Assembly (NCBI GenBank): GCA_958295525.1
Contig: OY282355.1
Coordinates: forward strand, 1,215,504 to 1,279,503
From: an uncultured Dehalococcoidia bacterium
GTDB taxonomy: Bacteria > Chloroflexota > Dehalococcoidia > Lucifugimonadales > Australimonadaceae
Direction: 5' to 3'
Length of the DNA: 64,000 bases
Part shown: in pieces, positions 31,670 to 44,272 of the stretch
Layout of the letters: each line of letters begins with the position of its first letter
How positions within the stretch are numbered: position 1 is the stretch's first letter
Notes under the pieces: model-generated
What the model saw: only the letters and a program-made list of their open reading frames with translations
Told to the model about the DNA's origin: nothing
Databases searched by the model: none
Translations under genes and position numbers: made by a program

Positions 31670-32719
31670 ATGCGCCGCGCCGCCCGCGTTCTTTTCTCCC
31701 TCGCCCTCCTCGCTTTCACGCTCGCCGCTTGCCAAAGCGCGCCTGCGCCTACTCCCACGTTCACGCCCGCGCCGCCGCCTGCTCCTACCCTCACGCCCAC
31801 GCCTACCCTTACTCCTACGCCTACGCTCACGCCTACCCCGTCCCCTGTCCCCACGCTCACGCCTACCCCGTCGCCTACTCCCACCCTCACGCCTACCCCG
31901 TCGCCTACTCCCACGCTCACGCCTACCCCGTCGCCCACCCCCACGCTCACGCCCACCCCGTCGCCTACTCCCACGCTCACGCCCACCCCGTCGCCTACTC
32001 CCACGCTCACGCCCACCCCGTCGCCTACTCCCACGCTCACGCCTACCCCGTCGCCCACTCCTGCCCCAATGCCGATATACGCCGCGAAACGCGCGTGGAA
32101 TTGCTTCTTCGACAGGCCGGCTGACGGATCCGACGGAGACTGCGGATGGCGTTCGGAGAGCGTGCTGAAGTGGCCCGGGCCAATAGCGATTCACTTCTAC
32201 ACGGAGGTCGGTTTCCAAAACAGACTCGAGGACGCGCTGGCGCAGTTGACCGAACTGCTGGGCTACGAATTCGCTGTGATCGACGCGAACGGAATGTCGG
32301 CGTCCGACAGGAACAACTACAACGAGGTTCTCGGCGACAACGCCATACTGGTGGAGTTGCGCGCCGACGACCTCGTCGGGAGCGACCGCTTGGGCTACGC
32401 GCAGACGTGGTGTTACTGCGCCCAGCACACGTATGCGGTCGCGCGCGTCGTCGTGGCCGGACAGAGCAGCAACCTGAACGCGACGATTATGCACGAGATG
32501 GTGCACGCGCTAACAGGAATGGGGCACGTCGTCGGGAGCAGCCTGATGGCGCGGTACAGCAGTTACAACCGCAGGACGCTCAGCGATTCCGACAGAGAGC
32601 AGTTCGCCATCTACAAGCAAATCCCCCGCGGTATGCACGTGGACGAGGTGAAGGAGTTCGCCTACATCGCCGAGTCCGGGGAGTTGTGGATCAACACCGT
32701 TCCCGTCTACGAGCGGTAA
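31670..32719 (+). CDS. lipoprotein with Pro/Thr repeat stalk and HExxH domain
   Basis: The 349-residue precursor has a lipobox LTLAAC (Cys21), a stalk of [10 protein letters not shown] decapeptides (about 25-133, seven exact units at 61-130) and a globular domain (135-349). That domain has [12 protein letters not shown] at 275-286 followed by [26 protein letters not shown]. HExxH plus a downstream His and an S-x-M turn with LSxxD resembles matrixin-like zinc proteases, although the spacing has one residue more than the canonical metzincin motif. Likely tethered outside the membrane. Substrate unknown; protease activity is inference. Confidence 0.7.
31850..32059 (+). repeat. 30-bp coding tandem repeat, seven units
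   Basis: Encodes [10 protein letters not shown] seven times; units differ only at a few third positions (CCCACG/CCCACC, CCTACC/CCCACC). A less regular eight-residue version precedes it from about 31780. Confidence 0.95.
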
Positions 32720-33301: not shown

Positions 33302-33426
33302 GTGAACGCTCCTTTGAACGGGGGGTTGCCGAGCATACTACCACGCTTCCGCGCCCGCCTCGCAGGCGCAGGCGGCGGATCCATGAGGTCTCGGCGCGGC
33401 AGTCCGTCTCTCATCCTGCCCTCCGG

Positions 33427-33534
33427 TTCCCGCCTGCCCTCCGGTTCCCGCCTGCCCTCCGGTTCCCGCCTGCGCGCCAGTTCCCGCCTGCCCTCCGGTT
33501 CCCGCCTGCGCGCCAGTTCCCGCCTGCGCGAGAA
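33427..33534 (+). repeat. 18-bp tandem array, six units
   Basis: TTCCCGCCTG begins at 33427, 33445, 33463, 33481, 33499 and 33517, exactly 18 bp apart, joined by CCCTCCGG or CGCGCCAG. The unit is half of the dispersed palindrome. It lies in the 33302-33662 gap, which otherwise holds only the candidate promoter at its right end. Confidence 0.92.
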
Positions 33535-40080: not shown

Positions 40081-41790
40081 TCAGCGCCCGGCTGCGGCCG
40101 GCGCCAGCGCCTCGCTTAGGGCGGCCTCGTCGAGGCCGTAGACCCCGACGGCGGCGCCGGCGGTGACGTAGCCGTTGCGGAGGTCGCCGATCACGCGCTC
40201 GCGGCTGCGGCTCCTGGGGTCGCCCGCGCCGCCGGCGCTGCCGGTTTCGACGCGGACGACGTCGCCTTCCTCCAGCATCACGTTGGAGATGATGCCGACG
40301 TAGCGCCGCTCCTCTTGGGCGCCGGGGTTGACGATGACCGCGCCCGCGACTCCGTCGAGTCCGCCTGCGACGCCATGGGCGGGGGCGAGGTTGCGAGGGC
40401 TGCCTCCGGCGTAGCGGCTGGGCTGTTTGACGAGATATTCGCGGCGCATCGCCAGGCCGCCCCGGTATTCGCCGGGCCCGCCGGAGTCGGGAACGAGTTC
40501 GAACCGGCGCATTTCGACGTCGAATTCGGACTCCAGGATTTCGGCGCTCGTGATCTTGCTGCCGCCGCCCCAGGAGTGGCCGGTGCCTGTCCAGCCGTCG
40601 CCGCCGTAGTGCGCGCCGTTGCCCGACATCATTAGTTCGTATTGCACGTAGCGCCTGCCGCCTCCGACGGTTCCCATCACGACCATGCCGCTGCTGGCGT
40701 TGTGGGCCACGGCGGGGCGGCCGGCCGCCCGGCTCAGCGCCTCGAAGATGACGTCTTCCACGGTGGAGAGCGTCATTGAGTAGAAGCCGACGGGGGTGGG
40801 GAAGGAGGGGTCGAGCACGGAGCCTTGCCGGAAGCGGCATTCGACGGCGCGCGCGAGGCCGAAGTTGTTCGGCACGCCCGGGTCGATCATTGCGATGACG
40901 GCGTAGTAGGCCATTCCGCGCACGAAGGGCGGGCGGGCGTTGATCGGGCCGAGGCTTTGGTCGTCCGTGCCGGAGAAGTCGATGACGAGGGAGTCGCCGT
41001 TTTTTATGACGGCGGCGTGAAGGCGGAGTTTGCGCTGGGGGTCGACGATGTCGTCAGTGAACGCTTCCGCTTCGTAGACGCCGTCGGGCCACTGCCGGAC
41101 GGCTTGGCGGACGCGGGCCTCGGCGCGGAGGCCAATCTGCTCGAACGCCTCTATGACGATAGGCTGGCCGTATTCGTCCATTAGGCGCTTGAGGCGCGCC
41201 GCGCCGATGCTCCAGAGGGCGCCGGCCTGCGCGCCGAGGTCGCCGAGCACGAGTTCGGGGGCGCGGCTGTTCGCCCGCAGCATCTGATGCGTCTCGCGGA
41301 CGGGCTCGCGGCGGGAATGGAACTTGACCGGCATAATCTGCAAGCCTTCGCCGAAGACGTCGCGGGCGAGCGTGTTGCGGCTGCCCGGCGACTGCCCGCC
41401 GATGTCGCTCTTGTGCCCCATCGAGGCGCAGAAGGCGGCGACGCGCCCTTCGTGGAACACGGGCAGCACGACGACCATATCGTTGGGGTGGGGGCAGCCG
41501 GAGTAGTACGGGTGATTGATGAGGAAGCAGTCGCCGTCCTCCATCTCCTCGTAGGCGTAGAACCGGAGGACGCCCTTGACGCACTCCGGGTAGGCGCCGA
41601 GGTGGGGCGGGAGCGGGGAGTATTGCCCGATGACGTTGCCTTCGCGGTCGGTGATGCCCGCGGAGAAGTCGTGGGACTCGCGGATGATGGTGGAGAAGCC
41701 GGTGCGGAGGACGGCGGCCTGCATTTCGCGGACGATGCCGTCGAGCCGCGCGCGGATGACTTCTTGGGTGATGACGTCTGCGGTTGCCAT
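40081..41790 (-). CDS. hydantoinase B/oxoprolinase-family protein
   Basis: The 569-residue HyuB-type subunit has family blocks TGFSTIIRESHDFSAGITDREGNVIGQ, NHPYYSGCPHPNDMVVVLPVFHEGRVAAFCASMGHKSDIGG, DFSGTDDQSLGPINARP, and the C-terminal GGPGEYRGGLAMRREYLV and VETGSAGGAGDPRSR. In known systems it pairs with HyuA to hydrolyse hydantoin, oxoproline or acetone-carboxylase-like substrates with ATP. No hyuA gene is present in this window, so the partner is elsewhere or missing. The ATG at 41790 gives the usual N-terminus. It precedes the three-paralog cluster by 13 bp. Confidence 0.93.
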   Translation of the reverse strand: MATADVITQEVIRARLDGIVREMQAAVLRTGFSTIIRESHDFSAGITDREGNVIGQYSPLPPHLGAYPECVKGVLRFYAYEEMEDGDCFLINHPYYSGCPHPNDMVVVLPVFHEGRVAAFCASMGHKSDIGGQSPGSRNTLARDVFGEGLQIMPVKFHSRREPVRETHQMLRANSRAPELVLGDLGAQAGALWSIGAARLKRLMDEYGQPIVIEAFEQIGLRAEARVRQAVRQWPDGVYEAEAFTDDIVDPQRKLRLHAAVIKNGDSLVIDFSGTDDQSLGPINARPPFVRGMAYYAVIAMIDPGVPNNFGLARAVECRFRQGSVLDPSFPTPVGFYSMTLSTVEDVIFEALSRAAGRPAVAHNASSGMVVMGTVGGGRRYVQYELMMSGNGAHYGGDGWTGTGHSWGGGSKITSAEILESEFDVEMRRFELVPDSGGPGEYRGGLAMRREYLVKQPSRYAGGSPRNLAPAHGVAGGLDGVAGAVIVNPGAQEERRYVGIISNVMLEEGDVVRVETGSAGGAGDPRSRSRERVIGDLRNGYVTAGAAVGVYGLDEAALSEALAPAAAGR

Positions 41791-41927
41791 AGGAGCGCTC
41801 GCCTTGTCGCGATCTCACGTCGCGGCGCCTAGTTTATCACGAGCGGGGCGCTGCGCGCCCGTCCAGCGCTTGCGGGGTTCCCGCGTAGGGCGGGAAGGGT
41901 GGGGGCCCAGGCCGATTCTGCGGAAAA

Positions 41928-41953
41928 GCGCTCAAAAGCGCTCATTTGCGCTC
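41928..41953 (-). repeat. three GAGCGC motifs at 10-bp spacing
   Basis: GCGCTC at 41928, 41938 and 41948, i.e. GAGCGC on the minus strand. This is the opposite orientation to the ten-unit array at 42231, with 277 bp between the two sets. Confidence 0.8.
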
Positions 41954-42112
41954 ACTCCCTCCGTCGAGTTGGGTTGCGGGGCGCGCCGCCGAGGGGGTTG
42001 GGAGCGGCGACGGAACCATCGTAGCAAGGCGGCGTAAGGCCGCGCAATGGGCTCGTGTCATAATTAGAGGGATGGCTTGGGCAAGGCGGGGAACGGTTCG
42101 CGCCGGGGTGGG

Positions 42113-42185
42113 AGTAGGTTCCTGCTTTCGCAGTCAGGGCGTGGCGCGTGGGGCGCTTTGGAGACGAGGCGGCTGCGCGCCGTCT
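42113..42185 (-). repeat. 90-bp interspersed repeat, copy C (inverted)
   Basis: AGTAGGTTCCTGCTTTCGCAG, then CAGGGCGTGGCGCGTGGGGC and TTTGGAGACG: the reverse complement of copies A and B. A dRS3-like unit follows at 42194-42215. Confidence 0.75.
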
Positions 42186-42230
42186 GGGGGAGAGGTTCCC
42201 GCCTACGCGGGAACGACGACAGGGGACAGT

Positions 42231-42334
42231 GAGCGCTCCGTGAGCGCCGAATGAGCGCTTTGCGAGCGCCAATTGAGCATTCCGTGAGCGCCGAATGAGC
42301 GCTTTGGGAGCGCCGAATGAGCGCAAATGAGCGC
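42231..42334 (+). repeat. ten-unit GAGCGC array with 11-bp period
   Basis: GAGCGC (one unit GAGCAT) starts at 42231, 42242, 42253, 42264, 42275, 42286, 42297, 42308, 42319 and 42329. Flanking dinucleotides alternate, and a 25-bp block is repeated at a 44-bp interval. It lies in the 41791-42424 gap between glmS and hydantoinase B, which has no gene. Two further dRS3-like palindromes follow at about 42349-42375 and 42388-42412. Confidence 0.95.
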
Positions 42335-42424
42335 TAGGGTCTAGGGGCGAGATTCCCGCCTACGCGGGAACGACGGGACACTGGGGCGGAGTTCCCGCCT
42401 GCGCGGAAAGGGCGGGAGGGGCGG

Positions 42425-44272
42425 CTACTCGACCGTCACGCTCTTGGCGAGGTTGCGCGGCTGGTCTATGTCGTTGCCCAGGAGGTCGGCGGTGCGGTAG
42501 GCGAGGAGTTGCACGGGGACGGTCGCCACGACGGGCTGCAGCAGGGAAGGCGTTTCCGGCGTCCAGATCACGTCGTCCGCGAGTTCCGTGACCTCCTTGC
42601 TGCCCTCCGTGGCGACGGCGATGACGGGCCCGCCCCGAGCGCGAACCTGCGCGACCGCGTTCAGCATCTTCGGGTAGAGCGAGTTGCGGAGCGCGAGCGC
42701 GACCACCGGCGTGTCGCCGCCGATCAGCGCGATGGGGCCGTGCTTCATCTCCGCCGCCGACAAGCCGTCCGCGTGGATGTAACTCGTCTCCTTCATCTTC
42801 AGCGCGCCTTCGCGGGCGATGGGCTCCAGCAGTCCGCGCCCGATGAAGAGGAACGAGCGGGACTTGAAGCAGCGCTCCGCGATGGCCTCCACGCTCGCGT
42901 CCGCCATCTCTAGGCTCGCGCCCAGCAGCGCGGGCAGGCGCGCGATGTCGTCCACTCGCTTCGCCGCGCGTTCTCCGGATAGCGTTCCGCGCCCCTGCCC
43001 CAGCGCGCAGGCGATCAGGTACGCCGTGACCATCGAGGACACCATCGTCTTCGTGGAGGCGACGCCCACCTCGGCGCCCGCGTGCACCAGCAGCGCGCAT
43101 TCGGCGGCGCGGGTCGCCTCGCTGCCCGGCGCGTTGGTGATGCACGCCGTCCGCGCTCCTTGCGCCCGCGCCTCGCGCAGCGCGTGGAGCGTGTCCGCCG
43201 TCTCTCCCGACTGCGTGATGCCGATTACGAGCGTCCGCTCGTCCAGCGCCGGGTCGCGGTGCGAGAACTCCGCCGCGATTTCGAACGACGCGGGCGTCCG
43301 CGCAAGCGTCTCGACGTAGCGCGCGCCGACCTGTCCCGCGTGCAGACTCGTTCCCATTCCAATGAACAGAACGCGGTTGAGCGCGGCCATTTCCGCCTTG
43401 CTCAGCGGCAACTCGCTCAGCGCGACCTCGTCGGACTCGAACGCTATGCGCTCGTGCAGCGCGCGCTGCGCCGCGTCCGGCTGCTCGTGAATCTCTTTCA
43501 GCGTGAAATGCTTGTACGCCCCGCGCTCCAGAATGCTGCGCGGCACGTCCACGTAGTGCACTGAGCGCGACGCCCTCCGCCCCTCCATCGTCCGCAACTC
43601 GAATCCCTCCGGTCGGACGATGACGAGTTCCTCGGGCTCCATAAAGAGAACGCGGGAGGTGTGCGGAATCAGCGCGGGCAGGTCGCTTGCGATGAACGCC
43701 TCGCCGGTTCCCGCGCCGACGGCGACGCCGCCCGCGTTTCCGCGCCGCGCCGCGACGATCAGCCCCGGCTCCTTCGCGTGCATGCAGGCGATGGCGTGCG
43801 CTCCGTGAATCCGCCCCGCCGCGAGGCGCACCGCCTCTTCGAACGGCGCGCCATCCGCAAGCAACTCCTGAATCAGATGCGGAATGACCTCGCTGTCCGT
43901 CTCCGAGAGAAAGGCGTGGCCATTGGCGGCCAGCCTCGCCTTCAGTTCCGCGTAGTTCTCCACGATTCCGTTGTGGACGACGACGATCTCTCCCGCGCCG
44001 TCCGCGTGCGGGTGCGCGTTGGCCGCCGACGGAGGGCCGTGCGTGGCCCAGCGCGTGTGGCCGATGCCGCGGCTTCCTCTCACGGGCTCGCTCCCCACGA
44101 GTTGGAGGAGGTTGTCCAGTTTGCCCGCCGCCTTGCGGAGAAAGAGGTTGCCGTCGTCGTCCGCCACGGCCATGCCCGCGCTGTCGTAGCCCCGATAGGC
44201 GAGATGGACGAGCCCGTCCAGCACGACGCCGGCGGCGTCGCGCGTTCCCGTGTATCCGACTATTCCGCACAT
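42425..44272 (-). CDS. glmS: glutamine-fructose-6-phosphate aminotransferase (isomerising)
   Basis: The 615-residue enzyme makes glucosamine-6-phosphate, the first step to UDP-GlcNAc. The N-terminal glutaminase starts MCGIVGYTG with Cys2 as nucleophile and has HTRWATHGPPSAANAHPH and VVHNGIVENY. Two SIS domains follow (GMGTSLHAGQVGARYVETLA, GITQSGETADTLHAL, VASTKTMVSS, GRGLLEPIAREGALKMKETSYIHADG). It ends QPRNLAKSVTVE as the family does. The start is fixed because Cys2 must follow the initiator Met. It lies 170 bp after pgl; no glmS ribozyme motif is evident. Confidence 0.97.
   Translation of the reverse strand: MCGIVGYTGTRDAAGVVLDGLVHLAYRGYDSAGMAVADDDGNLFLRKAAGKLDNLLQLVGSEPVRGSRGIGHTRWATHGPPSAANAHPHADGAGEIVVVHNGIVENYAELKARLAANGHAFLSETDSEVIPHLIQELLADGAPFEEAVRLAAGRIHGAHAIACMHAKEPGLIVAARRGNAGGVAVGAGTGEAFIASDLPALIPHTSRVLFMEPEELVIVRPEGFELRTMEGRRASRSVHYVDVPRSILERGAYKHFTLKEIHEQPDAAQRALHERIAFESDEVALSELPLSKAEMAALNRVLFIGMGTSLHAGQVGARYVETLARTPASFEIAAEFSHRDPALDERTLVIGITQSGETADTLHALREARAQGARTACITNAPGSEATRAAECALLVHAGAEVGVASTKTMVSSMVTAYLIACALGQGRGTLSGERAAKRVDDIARLPALLGASLEMADASVEAIAERCFKSRSFLFIGRGLLEPIAREGALKMKETSYIHADGLSAAEMKHGPIALIGGDTPVVALALRNSLYPKMLNAVAQVRARGGPVIAVATEGSKEVTELADDVIWTPETPSLLQPVVATVPVQLLAYRTADLLGNDIDQPRNLAKSVTVE

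Follow-up and report, generated by a model that had tools for sequence, protein, structure and literature searches.

An uncultured Dehalococcoidia bacterium of the Australimonadaceae (assembly GCA_958295525.1) carries, in the interval between a glmS-like gene and a Hydantoinase B gene, ten units of a GAGC-containing motif that recur once per helical turn and, further left, three more units in the opposite orientation. This arrangement raises the question of which protein reads such phased arrays and for what purpose they are kept in the chromosome. We analysed the locus within a window of 64,000 nucleotides (contig OY282355.1, positions 1,215,504 to 1,279,503) and compared it with the rest of the genome and with the sister genomes of the genus. 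The comparison indicates that the phased array module is the maintained control region of a family of genes encoding proteins that resemble the small terminase subunit of phages (TerS), and that most members of this family have paralog-specific motifs. What the arrays do is a matter of probability. We give about an even chance to the reading that they are docking sites of a wrap-around, TerS-like ring protein, similar to a phage packaging initiation (pac) site, from which the terS gene is missing in the window.

Two phased arrays and the module to which they belong

The right array (42230..42339, plus strand) consists of ten TGAGC units. Exact GAGCGC copies start at 42231, 42242, 42253, 42264, 42286, 42297, 42308, 42319 and 42329, and the fifth unit, at 42275, is a GAGCAT variant. 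An earlier note on this DNA had described ten GAGCGC units at 11-bp steps; the phased array with its final 10-bp step is indeed present, but it comprises nine exact units and one variant, and eight steps of 11 bp followed by one of 10 bp. The unit phase vector R is 0.99 for an 11-bp period. The left array (41924..41953, minus strand), found exactly as the note had claimed, holds three GAGCGC units at 10-bp steps, with inverted copies at 41928, 41938 and 41948, and lies 277 bp from the right array. Pattern searches against reversed controls reveal that the array is far from chance. In the 2.51-Mb single-contig genome TGAGCGC-N4-TGAGCGC has 10 matches, on one strand throughout, against 0 for the reversed control, while three successive TGAGCV at 10-11-bp steps match 24 times here and 1-9 times per sister genome, with no match for the controls in 6/6 genomes.

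The two arrays, together with a promoter and a leader between them, form a module that exists in four full copies in the genome, and the spacing of the right array is identical in all of them. The 110-bp right arrays of the other three copies are 83-91% identical to that of the window; in 4/4 copies a short inverted array is found about 200-280 bp further left, conserved blocks of the promoter area lie in between, and copies of the left half or left end occur at five further genomic places. The earlier note had linked the array to the hydantoinase operon, and it does lie between the glmS-like and Hydantoinase B genes, both on the minus strand. Nevertheless, the module is not tied to hydantoinase, because the other full copies precede priA (a label given by eye from sequence), an amidohydrolase gene and a gene for a 140-aa helix-turn-helix (HTH) protein, which is TerS-like. 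Nor was any array found on the 3' side of glmS in five sister genomes, and a hydantoinase-specific operator is thus ruled out. Genes outside the window were called with a simple codon-usage script, and some of the sister assemblies are fragmented.

Alignment of the four right arrays shows where constraint acts. GAGC is invariant in 40/40 units, while 30/70 of the other columns vary (Fisher p 8e-8), and no indel separates the four arrays, although the spacer beside them barely aligns. Corresponding units are more similar across copies (0.86) than different units inside one copy (0.71), which indicates that the arrays are old and maintained rather than freshly amplified. A recognisable HTH gene is absent from 3/4 full copies, so the arrays are kept in its absence. 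The conserved spacing, the invariant GAGC and the phased motifs of related genes described below give good support to the proposal of the earlier note that a cooperative protein array occupies one face of the DNA; neither random scatter nor decay without phase conservation, the two outcomes which that note had set against its own proposal, was seen. Among 98 genomes up to order level the exact motif has a match in this genome only, because the sister species use other cores. Exact TGAGCGC arrays in GTDB genomes and viral contigs, among the matches listed, have the appearance of plain tandem repeats that lack the module, and were rejected as relatives.

Within the window, the promoter block TGACACGAGCCCATTGCGC (42042..42060, minus strand) is directed at the hydantoinase gene and belongs to a genus-wide promoter class. 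Its -10-like TACGAT (42018..42023, minus strand), inside TGCTACGATGG, is kept in the other copies of this genome and ahead of the sister TerS-like genes, and the conserved block TGTCATAATT at the upstream promoter edge (42056..42065, plus strand) is found in the full copies of this genome, with TGTCATAATG in its place in the 2120k copy. The left array is the counterpart of the array at the start codon of TerS-like genes. It overlaps what we read, by comparison with the start of the TerS-like gene, as a vestigial translation start (41932..41962, minus strand) comprising GGAGGGA, GTG and the residues M S A N E R F before a stop. Beyond the left array the coding part of terS is absent, while both arrays and the promoter are kept, and no convincing TerS remnant was found near the window copy. 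Nor does the stretch that holds both arrays contain a convincing gene, as the earlier note had said, and the open reading frames (ORFs) that overlap there look spurious. The Hydantoinase B gene downstream of the promoter (40081..41790, minus strand) matches PF02538 (Hydantoinase_B) with E 5e-141. The glmS-like gene is an ORF (42425..44272, minus strand) whose 3' end lies 86 bp from the right array and whose single-copy orthologs in sister genomes are 66-73% identical. Between promoter and right array, the spacer (42066..42229) is unconserved (the copies are 16-49% identical, with 19-136 gap columns) and contains a palindrome resembling repetitive extragenic palindromic (REP) sequences. Such palindromes, CGTCATTCCCGCGNAGGCGGGAAT, bracket the array at 42197-42219 and 42352-42374 and are common in many other intergenic spacers. 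Elsewhere in the window, G+C-rich tandem repeats with units of 30 and 36 bp occur at 31746-32062 and 33415-33527, and an Rfam scan of the window found tRNAs only.

A TerS-like gene family and dispersed head and terminase genes

The earlier note held that nothing known explains the array. This view has to be given up, as a TerS-like gene begins within one module copy: the left array of the C1:475k copy is the start of the gene for the 140-aa HTH protein (C1:474795-475214). Five sister genomes contain 29 solo homologs of this gene (3-8 each), with the same promoter ahead, and one more is present in a more distant genome. All of the tested paralogs (8/8) match small-terminase families in PHROGs, with a best E of 3e-8. 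An AlphaFold2 model of the protein from a 12-sequence alignment, with a predicted local distance difference test score (pLDDT) of 85, predicts an HTH and two long helices. A Foldseek search of the PDB with it places phBC6A51 chains (2ao9) best and the NV1 and PaP3 small terminases among those next, all with E above 0.01. In VIA-align, TerS chains make up 4/5 top rows, with a Z of 7.2 at best. A PDB sequence search with the family profile found nothing significant, and viral contigs yielded no relatives of the family. Within the phage collection, one paralog has its closest homologs in Streptococcus satellite phages, similar to phage-inducible chromosomal islands. These homologs share 28-32% identity with it and are annotated as hypothetical proteins; the four inspected have no phased arrays near their starts. 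One AT-rich phage record with a TATAT chain was disregarded. In most loci the TerS-like gene is followed, often with an overlap, by a gene of about 120 aa that matches neither Pfam nor PHROGs (L009:1407-1796 and some 27 loci of sister genomes).

Most sister TerS-like genes have phased repeats of 10-11 bp across the start codon. Phased 10/11-bp chains of 5-mers occur in 28/68 promoter regions, a set that includes the copies of this genome and a few overlapping or duplicate entries, against 0.95 expected from Markov shuffles. Paralogs differ in the core of their array, and the core varies together with the recognition helix: TGAGCGC is paired with SYATIRRW, TGAGCGG with NVSTLRRW, TGAGCC with S[LI]ATLKRW, TGAGCAG with [SN]ISTLTRW, AATGGC with GRRTL[TM]RW, ATGTC with TRRTL[TA]RW, GAGGCC with GRATLTRW, GGGGCC with GRNTL[ST]RW, CGTTACA with SRVTLYRW, and CGTTGC with NRTTLHRW and HRSTLHRW. 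These motif strings are mechanical top 6-mers, some of them extended and oriented by hand. In a partial Mantel test of motif against helix, in which the remainder of the protein served as covariate and which partly controls for phylogeny, r is 0.18 (p 0.026). The pairing of solo-array motifs with a resident TerS works in G002 and not fully in the other sister genomes, and we do not use it as proof.

The promoter ahead of the sister loci has the consensus TGACAY-NN-GCCCRTTGCGC, followed by TACNNT. Matches number 6-37 per genome in five of the six genus members (G005 left out), with 0 for the control; examples are window 42018-42060, L170, L177, L193 and L194. The genes that such matches precede include hicA and TerS-like genes. 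The same promoter class precedes the portal gene and the capsid operon of this genome and recA and radA of sister genomes, and the terminase large-subunit genes are preceded by a similar sequence, as judged by eye. The long promoter motif may be a DNA-damage promoter.

The portal, capsid and large-subunit genes are themselves scattered. One HK97-type capsid gene lies behind a head-protease gene in this genome, and a capsid gene occurs once per genome in 6/6 genus members. The group of head protease, small ORF and HK97 capsid is seen in this genome and two sister genomes (L267 at C1:2225342-2228008, L269 and L270), with no other phage genes recognised nearby; in this genome the capsid gene and its neighbours are, in addition, partly duplicated. 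This genome contains a solo portal gene, and a portal gene is present in three genus members. With a sister large subunit as query, eight solo terminase large-subunit genes (L228-L235) were found in this genome at C1:136348, 362127, 716288, 851089, 1004743, 1281678, 1785030 and 2276848, and such genes are present in this and the three sister genomes searched, while the PF03354 profile has no match in this genome. Seven of the eight are about 85-91% identical to each other in DNA sequence. REP-like palindromes are inserted in frame in the 3' parts of these genes, and one of the genes begins some 2 kb beyond the right end of the window. The surroundings of the TerS-like, portal and sister large-subunit genes inspected showed no cluster of phage genes. 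Head, portal and terminase genes are chromosomal across the lineage, one of the features expected of a gene transfer agent.

Array copies without an HTH gene are also held by the sister genomes, and some of them have changed their motif at a fixed site. L188 and L192 are one orthologous site in two species, with a promoter 94% identical (51 bp) and a downstream flank 93% identical (1,262 bp), neither of which has a TerS gene. Their arrays do not align, being of the CTGTCGG type in one and of the TGAGCC type in the other. The gene beyond both sites is convergent, so a simple operator of the neighbouring gene does not account for the array. At the site of L160, L162 and L207 the flanks agree as far as about +50, promoter included; beyond that point comes a cassette of another kind, with a different TerS and a different motif. 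L190 lacks part of the cassette.

Packaging site, operator or remnant

On the favoured reading, both arrays would be recognition sites of the TerS-like HTH protein encoded at C1:474795-475214. The comparison of loci shows a control region of the gene family that consists of promoter, leader and phased start-codon array, to which an upstream ten-unit array is added here. The TerS-like subunits would form a ring with their HTHs outward and DNA would wrap around it, one HTH meeting one TGAGC unit per helical turn, in which case ten units would roughly equal one ring. The opposing three-unit array would provide a second contact across the promoter, so that promoter DNA may be looped. More tentatively, such a pac-like site could mark chromosomal DNA for a dispersed packaging machine of the genus, made up of the capsid/protease operon, the portal and the large subunits. 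Array occupancy would also affect the promoter, and it is less certain whether it serves packaging, transcriptional control or both. In favour of the pac reading are an anatomy like that of phage SPP1, the dispersed head genes, and gene-less arrays that persist and change their motif. The full extension of it, which we regard as doubtful, is a dispersed domesticated packaging system in which solo TerS paralogs each read their own phased array, while the arrays, with or without a gene, would be chromosomal packaging addresses whose motif is exchangeable at a fixed promoter site. This would amount to a gene transfer agent whose entry points are sequence-specific.

Several observations weigh against the favoured reading. 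The match of the protein of this genome itself to TerS PHROGs is weak (E 3e-4 to 7e-3), and a phage sigma-factor profile scores slightly better (6.5e-5); the structural Z of 7.2 is middling by the tool's own note; three or four paralogs have no clear array; and the ten-unit upstream array is seen in this genome only. Moreover, the binding of pac repeats by known TerS domains was non-specific in vitro (PMC4737164).

A possible alternative, to which we assign clearly less than an even chance, is that the arrays are operators only. The TerS-like protein would then be a domesticated ring-shaped transcription regulator that controls its own promoter, the opposing arrays would form a repression loop, and the solo modules would be a regulon (hydantoinase, priA, amidohydrolase, DUF192, Rieske and isochorismatase). 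The arrays do flank or overlap promoter and start codon, and the window copy keeps its promoter together with the arrays; this reading requires no terS in the neighbourhood. Of the copies in this genome, 8/9 point into a gene, as operators would (binomial p 0.04, the orientations being a matter of judgement), and this also counts against the pac reading. Head-to-tail direct repeats of 10-11 bp near a promoter are known from PhoB-type and MraZ-type boxes, which have few units; the present locus has ten plus an opposing array, and its linked protein is TerS-like. Against an operator, the downstream genes share no theme, the dispersed head genes have the same promoter class, and L188 and L192 retain promoter and array without a co-directional gene, with a motif that changed between species.

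It is improbable that the arrays are remnants of a mobile cassette, in which promoter, arrays, terS and partner gene would form a self-copying unit of about 0.9-1.0 kb whose ends or regulatory tails were left in the window. Paralogous cassettes at different places do share a homology block that starts near -10 of the promoter and extends to roughly +900 to +1030, the element is absent at glmS of sister genomes, and solo truncated copies exist. However, no transposase or recombinase was seen in the cassette, several loci are common to sister species, and the arrays are still constrained after gene loss. The flanks are rich in REP sequences, among which no target duplications were discerned.

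The remaining explanations are very unlikely. For a neutral minisatellite grown by slippage, or a structured RNA from palindromic repeats, one may cite the short 10/11-mer TGAGCGC tandems in many unrelated GC-rich genomes, among the matches listed, and a minus strand that folds better than shuffles (z -3.5), but the four copies, though diverged, agree exactly in the number and spacing of their units, the excess of similarity between copies over that within a copy is the opposite of fresh slippage, and 0/28 predicted pairs show compensatory change. Phased direct repeats do resemble iterons in form, but a replication origin, which the earlier note had considered, or a partition site is equally improbable because the four copies are scattered; besides, the linked gene is TerS-like and the skew profile of the window shows no switch specific to the array.

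Relation to known packaging systems

In SPP1 the pac site, which contains direct repeats, extends over promoters and the beginning of terS, and the SPP1/SF6 TerS displays its HTHs on a ring (PMC4737164). Repeats over the promoter and the terS start are likewise found in our gene family and in the C1:475k copy. In contrast to SPP1/SF6 pac, however, the present array has one unit per helical turn over ten turns and a motif common to several chromosomal sites, most of which have no terS gene and none of which is embedded in a phage genome. The Streptococcus satellite homologs also differ, as they lie in satellite genomes and, in the four inspected, have no phased arrays near their starts, whereas the genes studied here are solo chromosomal genes. 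With the gene transfer agent RcGTA the genus shares chromosomal head and terminase genes that are conserved across a genus. The TerS of RcGTA is without an N-terminal DNA-binding domain (PMC6854486), while the system described here, known from genes alone, has an HTH, apparent address arrays and scattered genes. In the literature on Chloroflexota/SAR202 we found nothing relevant to terminases or gene transfer agents.

DNA recognition by small terminases has been called unresolved, and the model of nucleosome-like wrapping unproven (PMC9611059, PMC4737164). A family with one HTH-sized unit per helical turn, in which the motif changes with the helix, is a natural experiment on TerS recognition. 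For gene transfer agents no packaging start sites are known (PMC6854486); if it is true that the sites described here steer packaging, they would contradict that statement.
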